Part shown: positions 16,228-31,084 of the stretch, in pieces
How positions within the stretch are numbered: the first letter of the stretch is position 1
Layout: each line of letters opens with the position of its first letter
Virus record (IMG/VR): IMGVR_UViG_3300027759_000164
Span: 1 to 41,889 of that record
Reading direction: 5' to 3' (one strand)
Source of the DNA: a virus
Length of the DNA: 41,889 bases
Made by a program: the position numbers and the translations under genes
Notes under the pieces: generated by a model
What the model saw: only the letters and a program-made list of their open reading frames with translations
The model's database searches: none
What the model was told of the DNA's origin: nothing

Positions 16228-17856
16228 ATGAGTGAAAATAATATCCTCAAAGTCAGAAAAAGAGATGGTACCTTGGTTCCTTTTAATGTAGACAACATCA
16301 ACAAAGTTATTATATGGGCAACTCAAGAAATAACCGGTGTTAGTATTTCAGACATTGAAATTAATACCAAATTAAACCTTGTAGATGGTATCTCTACTAA
16401 AGAAATCCATAAAGTGTTAGTAGAATCTGCTATTAATCTTTTTAATGAAGAAAATCCCAATTATCAATGGGTAGCTTCTCGGTTATTAAGTTATCAATTG
16501 CGTAAAGATGTGTGGGGAGGAAAAAATCCCCCGAAATTTTATGATTTTATAGAAGCCAATGTTGAAAGAAAAATATATCACCCGGAGATTCTTCAACACT
16601 ATACCAAGGCGGAAATAGATAAATTAGATGAAAAGATAGTTCATAACAGAGATTATGACTTTACATATTCAGGCCTCAAACAATTGTGTGATAAATATTT
16701 GATTCAAAATCGTAAGAGCAAAGAAATTTACGAAACACCCCAGTTTGCCTATATGATGGCAGCCATGGTGAGCTACATGAAATATCCACCAGAAAACCGA
16801 TTACAATATGTTAAAAGAGCCTACGACCGATTTAGTAAATTTAAAATCAATTTACCCACACCCCAAATGGCGGGTATCCGCGGTTTGCTTAAACAGTATG
16901 CGTCGTGTTGCCTCATTGATGTGGATGATACTAAGGAGTCTATTTTTAGTTCCAATACTGCTGCTGGCTTTGCTACTACTCAGCGATACGGAATCGGATT
17001 AAATTTTGGAAGGATTCGCGGTATCGGCACTGAAATTAAAAATGGCAGCGTTATTCACACTGGAGTAATTCCTTTTCTCAAGGTATTTGAAGCCACCGTC
17101 AAAAGTTGTCAACAAAACGGAATTCGTGGCGGCGGCGCTACTGTAAATTTTCCGTTCTGGCACTATGAAATAGAAGATGTTTTATCTCTTAAAAACAACG
17201 GAGGAACAGAAGACAATCGAGTTCGTAAAGTTGATTATGTGATACAATTTTCCAAGATCTTTTATGAACGCTTCATGAAAAATGAATCAATCACTTTGTT
17301 TTCCTCACATGAAGTACCAGATTTGACAGAAGCGTTTGGTCTTCCTCATTTTGATGAATTGTATGAAAAATATGAATCAGATAAAAATATTCGTTATAAG
17401 AGAAAAGTGAAGGCCAGTTCTTTGATGTCTCAATTTGTAAAGGAACGTACTGAAACTGGTCGCCTATATGTGATGAATATTGATCATTGCAATGAACACG
17501 GATCCTTTTTGGAGAGAGTATCTATGACTAATCTGTGTTTAGTTGGAGAAACCTTAATTGATATCAGCACCGCGATATACGGTGACCTGACAATTCAAAT
17601 TAAAGATCTTGAAAAATATATGCAAGAAGGTACAGTACATATTAGATCATATGATATTGCAGCAGATACTAATGCAGTCTCATTAATTAGTGCGTTTGCA
17701 CAGACCGGTGTATCTGAAGAGTTAATTGAAATTGAAGATGAAACTACCGGTTATACAATTCAATGCACTCCAGAACATAAGATTTACACTCACAATCGAG
17801 GGTATGTGGAAGCAAAAGATCTGCTTGTAACAGATATTCTTGTATTAGACGCTTAA
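16228..17856 (+). CDS. nrdA: NrdA N-terminal half fused to split intein N-part (fractured gene)
   Basis: 542 residues: 436 of N-extein plus 106 of intein. The N-extein carries an ATP-cone domain (about residues 5-95), the substrate-site cysteine C227 in 'YASCCLID' (E. coli C225 equivalent) and 'RLYVMNIDHCNEHGSF', and stops at '...SMTNL', just before the active-site loop. From C437 ('CLVGETLIDIS') the sequence is an intein N-segment with 'TIQCTPEHKIYTHNRGYVEAKDL' (block B type). The frame then stops at TAA. The remaining NrdA lies downstream at 18745-19794, so active class I ribonucleotide reductase alpha needs protein trans-splicing. TAAATAAA lies 17 nt upstream. Confidence 0.93.
   Translation: MSENNILKVRKRDGTLVPFNVDNINKVIIWATQEITGVSISDIEINTKLNLVDGISTKEIHKVLVESAINLFNEENPNYQWVASRLLSYQLRKDVWGGKNPPKFYDFIEANVERKIYHPEILQHYTKAEIDKLDEKIVHNRDYDFTYSGLKQLCDKYLIQNRKSKEIYETPQFAYMMAAMVSYMKYPPENRLQYVKRAYDRFSKFKINLPTPQMAGIRGLLKQYASCCLIDVDDTKESIFSSNTAAGFATTQRYGIGLNFGRIRGIGTEIKNGSVIHTGVIPFLKVFEATVKSCQQNGIRGGGATVNFPFWHYEIEDVLSLKNNGGTEDNRVRKVDYVIQFSKIFYERFMKNESITLFSSHEVPDLTEAFGLPHFDELYEKYESDKNIRYKRKVKASSLMSQFVKERTETGRLYVMNIDHCNEHGSFLERVSMTNLCLVGETLIDISTAIYGDLTIQIKDLEKYMQEGTVHIRSYDIAADTNAVSLISAFAQTGVSEELIEIEDETTGYTIQCTPEHKIYTHNRGYVEAKDLLVTDILVLDA
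17536..17856 (+). other. Split intein N-fragment (IntN) coding segment
   Basis: 106 codons starting with the catalytic Cys1 (TGT at 17536). Block A 'CLVGETLI' and block B 'CTPEHKIYT' with the conserved TxxH-type histidine are visible. The insertion lies after 'NL' of the class I NrdA motif N-L-C-x-E. Confidence 0.9.
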
Positions 17857-17897
17857 TATCCATGACCTCAGAGCATAAGTAATTATGTAACGAGATT

Positions 17898-18740
17898 ATG
17901 AATTACAAAAATATACACGACAAATTAATTAATTATTGCAGACAAACAACTCCAAGATTTAGGCTTGAGCAAAGAAATCTAAAAGACTTAAGACTTAAAA
18001 ATAATCACATATATGTTGAAGTACATCACATAATTCCAAGATCTCTTGAAGGAACAGATATGATTAATAATCTTGTTACACTACTACCAGAAGAGCATAT
18101 TTTTATTCATATGCTTCGATGGAAAATATTTAATATTAGAAACGACATACTTGCAGTAAGATTCTGTTTAAATGGATATAATAAAAATAAAACATGTAAG
18201 CCAGTGTACAGCCTCACTAAATCTCTCCGTATGGGGTACGCCTGGTTAAAACATCAGTCTGCAACAGTGAGAGAAACTACCGGATGGCAAACCCCAGAAG
18301 GTCGTCAACGAATATCAGAAGCGAGAAAAGGTACAGTGGTGGTAAAAGATGCTACTACCGGCATTATTATCGGTTCTGTAGAAACCACTCACCCCAAAAT
18401 AAAAAGCGGCGAGTGGGTACATCACTCAAAAGGCAGAAAAGCTAGCTTAAAAGAAAGAATAAAGCTAAAAGAGCGTTCTAAAGGTATTAAAAATTCAAAC
18501 TCTTGCGGTTTAAATGATAGCTATTTTATTGAAAAGGGTATAGAATTATCTAAAGAATTTAACCGAATTATTAATTGGCAAGAGATGTATATTTTATCTA
18601 AAGAGAGAAACTTTGTATGGATGGTGGCTTGCGCGTGCCGGTTTAACCGTGCCGGGCAGCTAGGTTTTATAAAAGCCGTAAAAGAAGCGACTGGGCTGAA
18701 ATACGACCCTTACTATTCAAGACGCATTAAAAATAAATAA
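17898..18740 (+). CDS. Free-standing HNH homing endonuclease between nrdA halves
   Basis: 280 residues. The HNH core is at residues 43-71: 'HHIIPRSLEGTDMINNLVTLLPEEHIFIH', with the HH pair, central Asn and final H. Residues about 135-205 hold repeated Lys/Arg-rich NUMOD3-like stretches ('RISEARKG', 'GRKASLKERIKLKE') that usually bind DNA. It sits 41 bp after the IntN stop and 4 bp before the IntC start, the arrangement known from 'fractured genes' with split inteins, where the endonuclease spreads the insertion. The reading frame is intact. Confidence 0.88.
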   Translation: MNYKNIHDKLINYCRQTTPRFRLEQRNLKDLRLKNNHIYVEVHHIIPRSLEGTDMINNLVTLLPEEHIFIHMLRWKIFNIRNDILAVRFCLNGYNKNKTCKPVYSLTKSLRMGYAWLKHQSATVRETTGWQTPEGRQRISEARKGTVVVKDATTGIIIGSVETTHPKIKSGEWVHHSKGRKASLKERIKLKERSKGIKNSNSCGLNDSYFIEKGIELSKEFNRIINWQEMYILSKERNFVWMVACACRFNRAGQLGFIKAVKEATGLKYDPYYSRRIKNK

Positions 18741-18744
18741 GATT

Positions 18745-18843
18745 ATGTTAAAAATTAAAAAAATTAAAAAAAATGTACCTGTGTATGATATTACTGTTCA
18801 GCACACACAAAACTTCTTTGCTAATAAAATACTAGTGCATAAC
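18745..18843 (+). other. Split intein C-fragment (IntC) coding segment
   Basis: 33 codons ending at Asn (AAC 18841-18843); the next codon TGC (18844) is the +1 Cys. Length and sequence are typical of the C-parts of naturally split inteins. Confidence 0.9.
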
Positions 18844-19794
18844 TGCGTAGAAGTGACACATCCCACAAAACCTCTACAGCATATTGATGACCCTGAAGGA
18901 GAGATTGGTATATGTGTTCTCTCAGCCATCAACGTGCTAGAAATTAAGGATGATCAAGATTTGGCTGATACTTGCGATATCATTGTTCGCATGTTGGATG
19001 AATTAATTGATTATCAAGATTACTTCACCAAAGCAGCAGAGAACTTTACAAAGAAACGTAGAAGTCTTGGAGTTGGTATCACCAACCTAGCGGCTTTGTT
19101 AGCCAAAAACAATCTTAAGTACACTGACAAGGAAGCTCCTAATTTTGTAGACGCTTTGATGGAAAAAATACAATATAATCTTATTTCTTCTTCCGTTAAT
19201 CTGGCAGCAGAAAAAGGTGTGTGTGAAAAATTTGAAAGCACAAAATATTCCAAAGGCATTCTTCCTATAGACACTTACAAGAAGAAAATTGATAGCATAA
19301 TTACAAGAAAACCTTCTCTAGATTGGGAGGCTTTGCGTCAAAGGGTGGTATCGACTGGCATGAGACATTCTACACTGACAGCTCTTATGCCGTGTGAATC
19401 TAGTTCAGTCATTCAAAACACTACAAACGGCATTGAACCGCCCCGCTCTTTGTTGACATACAAAGGGTCTAAAGCCAATTCTGTTCCGGTTCTGGTTCCA
19501 AATTATTCCACTTGTAAAAATAAATATACTCTTCAATTTGACATGCAGGATAACATAGGATATATTAATATTGTTGCTGCCTTACAGAAGTGGGTAGATA
19601 TGTCAATTTCTACAAACCTTTATTACAATTATGACCATTATCCTAACAAGGCTCTTCCGGATTCAATGCTTATAAAAGAATTATTATATGCATACAGCAT
19701 GGGAGTTAAGACGCTGTATTACAGCAACACATATGACGGCGATAAACAATCAGCTACAGATGAAGGATGTGCCAGCGGAGCCTGTAGCATATAG
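18745..19794 (+). CDS. nrdA: Split intein C-part fused to NrdA C-terminal half
   Basis: 349 residues: a 33-residue IntC ending in 'NKILVHN', then a 316-residue C-extein beginning 'CVEVTHPTKPLQH'. IntC shows 'VPVYDITVQHTQNFFA' (block F) and the terminal His-Asn (block G). The C-extein starts with the predicted thiyl-radical cysteine (E. coli C439) and contains 'GEIGICVLSAIN' (C462 equivalent), the 'LYYSN' radical-transfer tyrosine pair and the C-terminal 'GCASGACSI' redox cysteines. Both exteins joined give 752 residues, matching full-length NrdA (E. coli 761). Confidence 0.93.
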   Translation: MLKIKKIKKNVPVYDITVQHTQNFFANKILVHNCVEVTHPTKPLQHIDDPEGEIGICVLSAINVLEIKDDQDLADTCDIIVRMLDELIDYQDYFTKAAENFTKKRRSLGVGITNLAALLAKNNLKYTDKEAPNFVDALMEKIQYNLISSSVNLAAEKGVCEKFESTKYSKGILPIDTYKKKIDSIITRKPSLDWEALRQRVVSTGMRHSTLTALMPCESSSVIQNTTNGIEPPRSLLTYKGSKANSVPVLVPNYSTCKNKYTLQFDMQDNIGYINIVAALQKWVDMSISTNLYYNYDHYPNKALPDSMLIKELLYAYSMGVKTLYYSNTYDGDKQSATDEGCASGACSI

Positions 19795-24173: not shown

Positions 24174-26834
24174 ATGTCTTTTAAACATTTTTTTACTGAG
24201 AGCGGCAAGGCTCTTAAAAAATTAGATATTCAAGTTTCACGTCTAAACAAACCAGAATTTTTAGAAATAGAACATAAACTAGGAGGTGTATTATCTCAAG
24301 CCGGATTAAAGATTCAAAAATGGCAAATGGGTAGTGCGGGTTCATGGTCTAAAAGTCATCCTTATTATACAGAAAATTCTCTTAAGTCAGAAGCCGGTGA
24401 TGTAGATGTAATGATAGATTTAGACGATCTACAACAAGCATTTCCCCCTGTACCAGTTCAAAGAACACGAGAAGTCAAACCCGAGACTTTAAAAAAGGAA
24501 TTAATAGAAAGCAGTAAGCAACAACTTTCTGATTATTTAACTCAAAATGGATTTTCTAATAATGGAGTTTCTTTGAGTTTAAATTATGAAATTAACGGAA
24601 AAAATATCCAAGTAGATTTGATAGTGAAGCAAGATGCTGAATCCACCATTCACGGACACACTCTAGACTATTCTCAAGATGTTGGAATGAGAGGCAGTGA
24701 CGTCTGGCTTAATATATATCCAAACCTTATAAGATTAATACCGAGTCCTATATCAGGAAAAATTACAACTAACGAAATAGATAGACTCACTGGACTGCCC
24801 AAAGGAGCTCTCCAGCTTAGCCCCGATAAAGGAGTTGTCGATAGAGAAACCGGTAAAGTATTATTTCCTTGGTCTCAAAAAGATAAAATATCTCAGTTAT
24901 TATTGGGTCCTGAAGCCACTGCCAGAGACATGTCTAGTATTAGTGGCATGAAGAAAATATTATTGAATCATCCAGAAAAATGGAATGCAGTTAAGCAATT
25001 CTTTCCAGCGGTGCAAGAAAACTTTTATATTAAAGGTTCTTTAATATCAGAAGGCATTGAACATCCAGAAGACACTATCATTTCAAGTGGATATGAGGGC
25101 GCTGAAAAAACTTTTAAAGAGCTTTCATCTTTAGTAAAAAATAGTAATACAGTTACCATTAAATGGGATGGTTTTCCTGCTATTATTTTTGGATGGTTAG
25201 AAGCTCCTTCAAAAAATAATCCATCTGGACAATTTTTGTTCGTAGACAAACATATGTATGATAAAATCTCTAAGGGTAAAATGGAATTTACCACTATAGA
25301 GGAATATGATAAAGCTCGCGGGTCAAATAGGCAAAGTCTTTGGGAAGCGGCTGCTGTAATGGTTCCTACTCTCAAGAGGGTTACTCCTCCAAAAGAAAAT
25401 CAATTTTTCTTTGGAGATTTGATGTGGTCTCAAATGCCAAAGACAGATAATGGTTATTATACATTTAAACCAAATACAGTGGAATATAGAGTTAAAATAG
25501 ATTCTAATTTAGGACACACAATTTCTAGGAGTGTGGGTGGAATAGCGGTTCATACCTTTATTCCTGGAATGGGAACAGAAGATAGGCCTTTAAAAGGTTT
25601 ACAGGGCCTTAAACAAAATGAAGGAATAACTTTTCTTGTAGGTGAAATAGAAGAAAAACCCCGGGTTTCTATATCTTCTAATTTATTAAATCAAACTAAA
25701 GAAACATTAAAACAACACAAAGCTGAAACTCAAAAATTTATATCAGATTTAGAGCAACTTAAAGCCAAAAGTGTTATAACTTCCATGGGCCCATTTATAA
25801 CTTCCATGTTAGCCCAGAATGATATTGCAAACAATATTGTGCCTAGATTTTTAGAATTTTTAAAGACTCGTTTGTCACCCAAACAAAGTGCAATAATGTT
25901 GGGCATTAATCAAAATGGTTGGTTGTATAAAGAAGGACTCAAAGGCATTATGGGTGTTTGGGCAATTTGGGCAGCTTTAACAGACTTAAAATTGAATATC
26001 AAAAAACAAATAGATATTCAACAAACGGGGTTGCCTATACAAGCTAGAATAGGTGAAGAAAACTCACACGAAGGTTATGTGTTTGGCTCCGGCGGAAATA
26101 AACTTAAATTAGTGGATCGTTTAGGCTTTAGTAAAGCCAATTTTGCTAAAAATGTTACTTCCGGAAATGACCTTGAAGCTAAGAGTAAAATGCCGGTGGC
26201 TTCTTTTTGTTTCGGTCGCATGAATCCTCCAACGGTGGGTCATCGCCTCTTAATGCAAAAAACTGTTGATGCGGGTGGAACTAATTCCTTTATATTTTTA
26301 AGCAACACTCAAAATCCTAAAAAAGATCCGTTAAACCCAGAAACAAAAGCAGAATTTGTTAAAAAAATATATCCCGAATTTGCCTCACACATTGTTTCAG
26401 AAAAGGTATTAAATCCAGTGCTAGCTGCAAATTATCTATATGCAAAGGGATTTCGAAATTTAGTATTCATAGCCGGAGCTGATCGTTTAGGTGATAATCC
26501 GGGTAGTTTAGAAAAATTATTAAATGGATGGAATAGTGGTCCTATAAGATCTAAGGATTTAAATTTTGGTGCCACTGGAAGAGAACAAGTGGCTTTGAAA
26601 TTTGTTAGCAGTGGGGACAGGGATGCTGACGGAGATATTAATGATGTCAGTGGCATTTCTGCTAGTCTTGCTCGTAAATTTGCTGTTGAAAAAAATGAAG
26701 CAGGATTTCAACAAGCAACTGGAGTATCTAGTGAGGTAAAAGTTAATGGCAAATCTCTTTATCAATCTGTAAGAGAAGGTTTGGGTCTTCCTTTAAATGA
26801 AAGTTTTAAGAATTTTTTTCTAAGCCGTTGGTAA
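24174..26834 (+). CDS. Three-domain nucleotidyltransferase (polymerase-beta-like + ligase-like + NMNAT-like)
   Basis: 886 residues. Domain 1 (about 50-155) has the polymerase-beta NTase pattern: 'GSAGSWSKS' (53-61), 'GDVDVMIDLDD' (75-85) and a later carboxylate in 'NIQVDLIV'. Domain 2 (about 305-660) has ligase-type nucleotidyltransferase motifs: I 'KWDG' (K330), III 'FFFGDLMW' (411-418), IV 'EGYVF' (633-637), V 'KLKLVDR' (643-649), with a helical insert at about 500-620. Domain 3 (about 674-840) is NMNAT-like: 'CFGRMNPPTVGH' (679-690), 'IAGADRLG' (766-773) and 'ISASLARK' (828-835). It could process or join nucleic acid ends or handle NAD. It stands alone on the plus strand. Confidence 0.7.
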   Translation: MSFKHFFTESGKALKKLDIQVSRLNKPEFLEIEHKLGGVLSQAGLKIQKWQMGSAGSWSKSHPYYTENSLKSEAGDVDVMIDLDDLQQAFPPVPVQRTREVKPETLKKELIESSKQQLSDYLTQNGFSNNGVSLSLNYEINGKNIQVDLIVKQDAESTIHGHTLDYSQDVGMRGSDVWLNIYPNLIRLIPSPISGKITTNEIDRLTGLPKGALQLSPDKGVVDRETGKVLFPWSQKDKISQLLLGPEATARDMSSISGMKKILLNHPEKWNAVKQFFPAVQENFYIKGSLISEGIEHPEDTIISSGYEGAEKTFKELSSLVKNSNTVTIKWDGFPAIIFGWLEAPSKNNPSGQFLFVDKHMYDKISKGKMEFTTIEEYDKARGSNRQSLWEAAAVMVPTLKRVTPPKENQFFFGDLMWSQMPKTDNGYYTFKPNTVEYRVKIDSNLGHTISRSVGGIAVHTFIPGMGTEDRPLKGLQGLKQNEGITFLVGEIEEKPRVSISSNLLNQTKETLKQHKAETQKFISDLEQLKAKSVITSMGPFITSMLAQNDIANNIVPRFLEFLKTRLSPKQSAIMLGINQNGWLYKEGLKGIMGVWAIWAALTDLKLNIKKQIDIQQTGLPIQARIGEENSHEGYVFGSGGNKLKLVDRLGFSKANFAKNVTSGNDLEAKSKMPVASFCFGRMNPPTVGHRLLMQKTVDAGGTNSFIFLSNTQNPKKDPLNPETKAEFVKKIYPEFASHIVSEKVLNPVLAANYLYAKGFRNLVFIAGADRLGDNPGSLEKLLNGWNSGPIRSKDLNFGATGREQVALKFVSSGDRDADGDINDVSGISASLARKFAVEKNEAGFQQATGVSSEVKVNGKSLYQSVREGLGLPLNESFKNFFLSRW

Positions 26835-30657: not shown

Positions 30658-31084
30658 TGGTGGAGGCGAGGGGAGTTGAACCCCTGTCCTGAAAACTTAG
30701 ACTTTAGCGTCTACAATCATATTTTGTTAACATTTTAAGACCAAAGGTTGTTAACTAGTTTTGGGTCTACCTATTGATTAGTAAGGGAACCAATTCCTCT
30801 CGATTTTTATTTTCAAAGCACTACACGATCTGGTGCTACAACCTATTGTGTTACTCCAGAAAATTTTAATAGGATCCATTTCTGTTTGTTAGGCTGCTAG
30901 GGCATATTCTTCATCAGCGATGAACGAGTCAGCGTTGTTGAAGATATATTCTGCTTCAGCTAAGAGTGCTTCTGTATTATCAGTTGCATTTATTTGTTTT
31001 GTCCAGAGATTTTAACGAGGCCAACCAGACTTCCTCGGATTGCAACTAAAGTTTTCAGCGCTCAGTCGAAACCAATACGCCCCC
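30658..31084 (-). ncRNA. ssrA: Transfer-messenger RNA (tmRNA)
   Basis: 427 nt. The ends form a 7-bp acceptor stem (5' GGGGGCG with 3' CGCCTCC, one G.U pair), discriminator A and encoded CCA (30658-30660). The 3' T-arm 'GGACAGGGGTTCAACTCCCC' and the 5' 'TTGGTTTCGACTGAGCGC' are the conserved tRNA-like parts of tmRNA. The reading frame ending in TAA at 30889-30891 runs back to GCA at 30985-30987, giving 32 codons that end in 'FIADEEYALAA'. The YALAA end is the classic proteolysis tag. It is a one-piece tmRNA on the minus strand between two phage genes and looks complete. Confidence 0.9.
30889..30987 (-). other. tmRNA tag reading frame (32 codons plus stop)
   Basis: Starts 'ATDNTEALLAEAEYIF', continues through NNADS and ends 'FIADEEYALAA' then TAA. 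The resume codon cannot be proved; GCA 30987-30985 is the best candidate because it begins with Ala and stays in frame. Known host tags are usually about 8-35 residues, and long acidic tags have been reported for some phage tmRNAs. Confidence 0.6.

Follow-up and report, generated by a model that had tools for sequence, protein, structure and literature searches.

The 41,889-nucleotide IMG/VR virus record IMGVR_UViG_3300027759_000164 (41.9 kb; "the window" here means this whole stretch) belongs to an uncultured T4-like myovirus and encodes, at 24174..26834 on the plus strand, an 886-amino-acid protein in which three nucleotidyltransferase (NTase) domains are fused. From the N to the C terminus, these are a pol-beta-type NTase, a probably ligase-like DUF6267 domain, and an NMNAT-type adenylyltransferase, preceded by a short leader resembling those of T4 internal head proteins. 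The open reading frame (ORF) is intact, begins with ATG, and has homologous triple fusions in other loci; its product joins in a single chain what a conserved phage operon encodes. A sequence-only reading had placed three NTase motif sets in this one chain and knew of no standard enzyme that combines them. We located all three sets where expected, with catalytic motifs kept in diverse relatives and catalytic residues conserved in each of the three domains, and found no curated family or paper describing pol-beta, DUF6267, and NMNAT together. The three-domain combination is real and undescribed and is best filed among virion-packaged multidomain phage proteins. Our preferred reading, with a probability of slightly above one-half, is that the protein is packaged in the virion, is ejected, and processes and joins broken nucleic acid ends with chemistry linked to nicotinamide adenine dinucleotide (NAD), as a phage "polyvalent" internal head protein.

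The first domain (residues 10 to 282; 24201..25019, plus strand) carries GSAGS at residue 53, GDVDVMID at residue 75, and VDLIV, which holds the third Asp, at residue 147. Together with a third Asp, the elements hG[GS] and Dh[DE]h form the catalytic signature of pol-beta nucleotidyltransferases, and G53, A55, G56, D76, D78, and D148 were invariant across 17 relatives of the domain (24 to 49% identity). An AlphaFold model of the first third of the protein (predicted local distance difference test [pLDDT] score, 84.9; residues 1 to 11 below 50 and disordered) was compared by Foldseek and matched mainly the pol-beta superfamily, with DNA polymerase mu and PolX on top, followed by terminal uridylyltransferases (TUTases), CCA-adding enzymes, and cGAS/DncV-like nucleotidyltransferases (CD-NTases). 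The best match had an E value of 7e-3 and a probability of 0.99, with template modeling (TM) scores of 0.35 to 0.39. Motifs and modeled fold thus point to the pol-beta nucleotidyltransferase superfamily, and the subfamily is left unclaimed because the TM scores stay below 0.4. RlaP was rejected as an identity: PF10127 had no match in carrier G001 or in most other carriers, and its sole match (G003) was a different gene. A metagenomic relative of the first domain (L012) used as a tblastn query had no match among 50,697 isolate phage records. Alignments of the window protein to isolate phage records started only from residue 263, among the matches listed, and the upstream genes of isolate phages (HTVC008M gp126, P-HM2 gp161, and others) did not match the N-terminal NTase.

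The second domain (residues 286 to 668; 25029..26177, plus strand) matched Pfam PF19782, the DUF6267 family, with an E value of 2e-34 and a score of 119.9 bits against a curated cutoff of 27. Its motifs, all on the plus strand, are HPED at residue 297; motif I, KWDG (25161..25172), with the putative nucleophile Lys330; motif III, GDLMW (25413..25427), at residue 414; GIAVHT at residue 456; and motifs IV and V, EGYVF at residue 633 and KLKLVDR at residue 643 (together 26070..26120). Among 20 diverse members (22 to 59% identity), 20 columns were invariant, 11 of them within KWDG, the GD of motif III, the E, G, and V of motif IV, and the second Lys and the Leu of motif V. The first Lys of the motif V KxK was variable, and H297, E299, and D300, just before KWDG, were also invariant. 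In the predicted secondary structure, motifs III, IV, and V coincided with strands and KWDG fell between two of them; the helical insert that had been proposed inside this motif set appeared as AlphaFold helices at about residues 502 to 617 (25677..26024, plus strand). The invariant motifs run in the order I, III, IV, and V, as in ligases and capping enzymes, and this order together with the conservation makes it quite probable that the domain is ligase-like.

The third domain (residues 670 to 872; 26181..26789, plus strand) contains GRMNPPTVGH at residue 681 (TVGH at 687 to 690) and ISASLAR at residue 828, that is, [HT]xGH and ISxTxxR-like motifs. Foldseek matched the last third to PPAT, NadD/NMNAT, and FAD synthetase (FADS) structures in the PDB with a probability of about 1.0, and the domain matched a PHROG cytidyltransferase (E value of 3e-28) and, weakly, NCBIfam TIGR00482. 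The curated NadD cutoff was not reached, so we place it, from motifs and modeled fold, at the superfamily level as an apparent NMNAT/NadD-type adenylyltransferase. We rejected the name cytidylyltransferase since the fold matches are adenylyltransferases; this usual phage label is probably wrong about the nucleotide. Structure comparison of each third thus agreed with the folds proposed for the first (pol-beta) and the last (NMNAT/NadD/PPAT) and gave the ligase fold of the middle no independent confirmation.

Of the 50,697 records of isolate phages, 464 contained DUF6267; cyanophages accounted for nearly all of these, with a few pelagiphages and methylotroph phages. The domains also occur separately: in the isolates whose neighborhood was examined, DUF6267 adjoins an NMNAT-like gene or stands one or two genes away. 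The two are fused in S-PM2 (LN828717), a separate Lig+NMNAT fusion, and the NMNAT-like gene of S-CREM2 is not adjacent to DUF6267. In most loci of uncultured phages, an NTase gene lies immediately upstream of a fused Lig-NMNAT gene, and a second pol-beta-like gene is often near the module. All three domains are fused in the window and in seven loci (L054, L056, L057, L059, L060, L062, and L072), two of which, L060 and L062, are cut by contig ends. Over its full length, the window protein is 54 to 61% identical to those of L054, L056, L057, and L059, and this identity ties it to the main fusion clade of a ligase-domain tree from which its own row had been removed by de-duplication. In that tree, the fusions require two changes, one of them in L072, with moderate support. 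A pattern scan of 84,980 bacterial and archaeal genomes gave no cellular relatives.

Around the gene, the window encodes a tail sheath and a tape measure protein as well as ribonucleotide reductase and a phosphoribosyltransferase. The flanking phosphoribosyltransferase (59 to 92% identical) and lysozyme (67 to 82%) genes are syntenic in the closest relatives, L054, L056, L057, and L059, and because of this synteny we regard the gene as resident and reject the earlier suggestion of a mobile accessory unit; many phages keep the module as a stable operon.

Further genes accompany the module. In L002 (3869-4882) and about 20 other loci, its neighbor belongs to another, divergent family of pol-beta-like NTases (about 337 amino acids, a leader and then GGWDT), which had no match in Pfam or isolate phages and which in L077 is fused to the first NTase. 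A P-loop kinase (Zeta_toxin/AAA_33/PSTK-like) that could be a 5'-end kinase is encoded between the DUF6267 and NMNAT genes of HTVC008M (gp129; L008, 7706-8368). The upstream neighbors of DUF6267 in pelagiphages and methylotroph phages (L009, 4869-5954; L008, 4911-5969) resemble small nucleases with a leader-like start and have no Pfam match.

The protein starts MSFKHFFTE/SGK, where the first nine residues (24174..24200, plus strand; within the segment of pLDDT below 50) form a putative capsid-targeting leader and the slash marks the predicted cut after Glu9. The corresponding T4 starts are MKTYQEFIAE/A (ipII/ipIII), MAKINELLRE/S (gp24), and MELITELFDE/D (Alt). The module proteins and many unrelated neighbors open with short peptides of the same form (MKIRELLE/S, MRIQELITE/A, and MNFKEFFTE/A), and a distant ligase in L115 starts MKTYREFLTE/A, near-identical to the ipII/ipIII leader. 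We adopted a strict leader pattern because a loose one separated poorly from background; it was chosen after seeing, and tuned on, the same data. Across 11 metagenomic loci, this pattern occurred at 50 of 132 plus-strand gene starts near the module (38%), compared with 16 of 746 internal Met residues (2%) and 3 of 78 other genes of the same loci (4%); it reached 9/14 in the C48C1 region and 10/14 in L012 alone. The binomial tails were tiny, with the limits that the loci share homologous genes, which are not independent of one another, and that the percentages are descriptive. An S77 (T4-type) prohead protease was encoded in six of the seven large relatives searched, and T4-type proteases cleave after Glu (PMC5694885).

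Two further observations concern the leader. The C-terminal tail of the window protein, NESFKNFFLSRW (26796..26831, plus strand), resembles it (SFK.FF) and has counterparts in L054 (EGVISFKEFFKV), L057 (ESIISFKEFLFKT), and L059 (VESFQSFFKSKL); this echo (SFKEFF or SFKNFF) is kept in these triple fusions despite a variable linker before it and is possibly a second targeting signal. In L012 (4649-15364), L014, and L015, consecutive unrelated genes (peptidoglycan hydrolases, metallopeptidase-like proteins, pol-beta NTases, and unknowns) share a near-identical leader, which suggests that such runs encode large injected cargo.

An NMNAT homologue has been reported in several independent purified-virion proteomes, including those of S-SZBM1 and S-CREM2, and T4-GC190 (cytidylyltransferase) was detected in S-SM1 virions. 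Two of the virion-detected homologues start leader-like (MRFRQFIIE/A in S-SZBM1 and MKNFSSFLTE/A in S-CREM2), and the DUF6267 protein of S-SZBM1, which starts MAKNTHLEHLED, has no leader and is not in the listed S-SZBM1 virion proteome. The association between leader and virion is small in number and in the predicted direction.

The leader resembles the T4 head-packing tag, and the virus may therefore inject the protein alongside its DNA, so that nucleic acids can be repaired or modified as infection begins. During head assembly, to judge from sequence and homologues, MSFKHFFTE would direct the protein into the prohead core, a gp21-type protease would remove the leader after Glu9, and the protein would enter the cell together with the DNA. 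The pol-beta domain, given its motifs, may then add nucleotides at a 3' end or gap; the DUF6267 domain may self-nucleotidylate at Lys330 and seal the strand; and the NMNAT-type domain may make or restore NAD+ or recycle nicotinamide mononucleotide (NMN), either for the sealing reaction or against host NAD depletion. What we observed is the conservation of catalytic motifs, the coupling of the genes, and the enrichment of leaders; from these we infer that the protein is packaged, cleaved, and ejected and that it carries out covalent nucleotidyl transfer, end joining, and NAD synthesis. Of the roles suggested from the sequence at the outset, nucleic acid end repair or ligation with NAD chemistry is still the best functional guess, and it would most likely serve to repair broken nucleic acid as soon as infection begins. 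As the substrate, RNA (for example, cut tRNA) is slightly favored over DNA because pol-beta NTases partnered with RNA ligases are predicted to repair RNA in jumbo phages (PMC7824862). A more specific version, which we rate as a long shot, would make the protein a self-fuelling, capsid-delivered joiner in which DUF6267 takes AMP from NAD+, the NMNAT domain rebuilds NAD+ from the released NMN and ATP, and gap filling or end extension falls to the pol-beta domain. In this version, the NMN part would be bound by the invariant HxED that immediately precedes KWDG, and DUF6267, present in nearly all T4-like cyanophages, would constitute a new family of covalent nucleotidyltransferases.

Several results weigh against a packaged end-joining protein. 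The pol-beta fold scores were modest (TM < 0.4). Whether or not the helical insert was included, hhalign gave no significant similarity between DUF6267 and T4 Rnl1, Rnl2, or DNA ligases, PDB profile searches with the single sequence and with alignments gave nothing relevant, and the Foldseek list was occupied by NMNAT matches, so that the ligase fold had no statistical support from fold or profile search. For these reasons, we claim no ligase subfamily and grade DUF6267 as ligase-like on motif logic. In the window itself, 6 of 53 gene starts were leader-like versus 6 of 153 internal Met residues, most window genes being without a leader, and some NMNAT and ligase homologues (P-HM2) lack one. 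The virion mass spectrometry concerns NMNAT homologues of other phages, not the window phage's protein, DUF6267 is absent from the S-SZBM1 list, and the S-CREM2 authors warn of possible contaminants in cesium chloride (CsCl) preparations.

The main rival to RNA repair is DNA repair, in which a gap-filling polymerase and a ligase would mend nicked or gapped phage genomes and DUF6267 would replace the missing T4 gp30 DNA ligase in T4-like cyanophages. The best Foldseek matches of the first domain are indeed family X DNA polymerases; PF09414, PF01068, PF01653, and PF09511 ligases were all absent from 5/5 complete Kyanoviridae genomes searched; and according to a 2010 review, g30 homologues are lacking but might be present as undetected distant ones (PMC2984593). 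However, a host ligase can substitute (PMC2984593), and a search of seven large metagenomic relatives found a canonical DNA ligase in four and an RNA ligase in two others. Because canonical ligases coexist with it in most of these relatives, DUF6267 is not simply the replicative ligase. We consider DNA maintenance rather unlikely. Also unlikely is an NAD+ economy device, in which the NMNAT activity would be the main one, directed against NAD-depleting defenses early in infection, and the other NTase domains would process nucleotides or adducts. The C-terminal fold matches NMNAT/NadD, and NMNAT-like proteins recur in cyanophage virions, whose authors propose NAD regulation, but the conserved ligase motifs and the pol-beta coupling are left unexplained, no nicotinamide phosphoribosyltransferase was noticed among the neighbors of the module, and PPAT-like substrates suit the fold equally well. 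That the protein is a cytosolic, unpackaged enzyme, its leader-like start being coincidental or another docking peptide and the virion detections lysate carry-over, is doubtful: some unrelated genes also start with a relaxed form of the leader and the S-CREM2 authors raised contamination, but the strict pattern greatly exceeds background and is shared by neighboring genes of unrelated kinds, and the NMNAT homologue is in several independent virion proteomes.

The preferred reading, a packaged end-joining protein, can be set beside four known systems. The T4-like cyanophage pair of DUF6267 (T4-GC71) and cytidylyltransferase (T4-GC190), for example P-HM2 gp162-163, has homologous domains, adjacent and in the same order as in the window fusion, but as separate genes, with no pol-beta NTase partner found and a leaderless ligase in P-HM2. 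IPI-III and Alt, internal head proteins of T4 that carry a capsid-targeting sequence (CTS) cleaved by gp21, have the same leader form, and the window's large relatives encode a T4-type prohead protease; the mature domains, however, are unrelated to the window protein, whose packaging and cleavage are predicted from its sequence. T4 internal proteins are injected defense proteins linked by a conserved CTS (PMC3012670). Phage polyvalent effectors (PMC9503650) have several enzymatic domains per chain, as does the window protein, which is probably virion-borne; in contrast, its domain set was not found described in that paper, and it has no MuF or portal fusion. Jumbo-phage pairs of RlaP NTase and ATP-grasp RNA ligase likewise couple a pol-beta NTase to a ligase-type enzyme, but the window NTase is not PF10127, DUF6267 is not PF09414, and the window adds a fused NMNAT and a leader.

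DUF6267 has so far been without an assigned function in its 464 isolate records, nearly all from abundant ocean phages, and a recognized ligase was absent from the five genomes tested. Its ligase-type reading, together with NMNAT and a new pol-beta NTase family in uncultured relatives, makes both gaps testable. The leader would offer a simple sequence rule for head-packed, injected proteins of marine and freshwater phages, a class hardly mapped outside T4.

Elsewhere in the window, the large subunit of ribonucleotide reductase (16228-19794, plus strand) is broken by an intein, with the splicing halves in separate ORFs and an HNH-like ORF (17898-18740) between them; this arrangement may represent a split intein or else a homing insertion. 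A complete transfer-messenger RNA (tmRNA) gene lies at 30658-31084 on the minus strand (Rfam RF00023, 136 bits) and encodes the tag ATDNTEALLAEAEYIFNNADSFIADEEYALAA.
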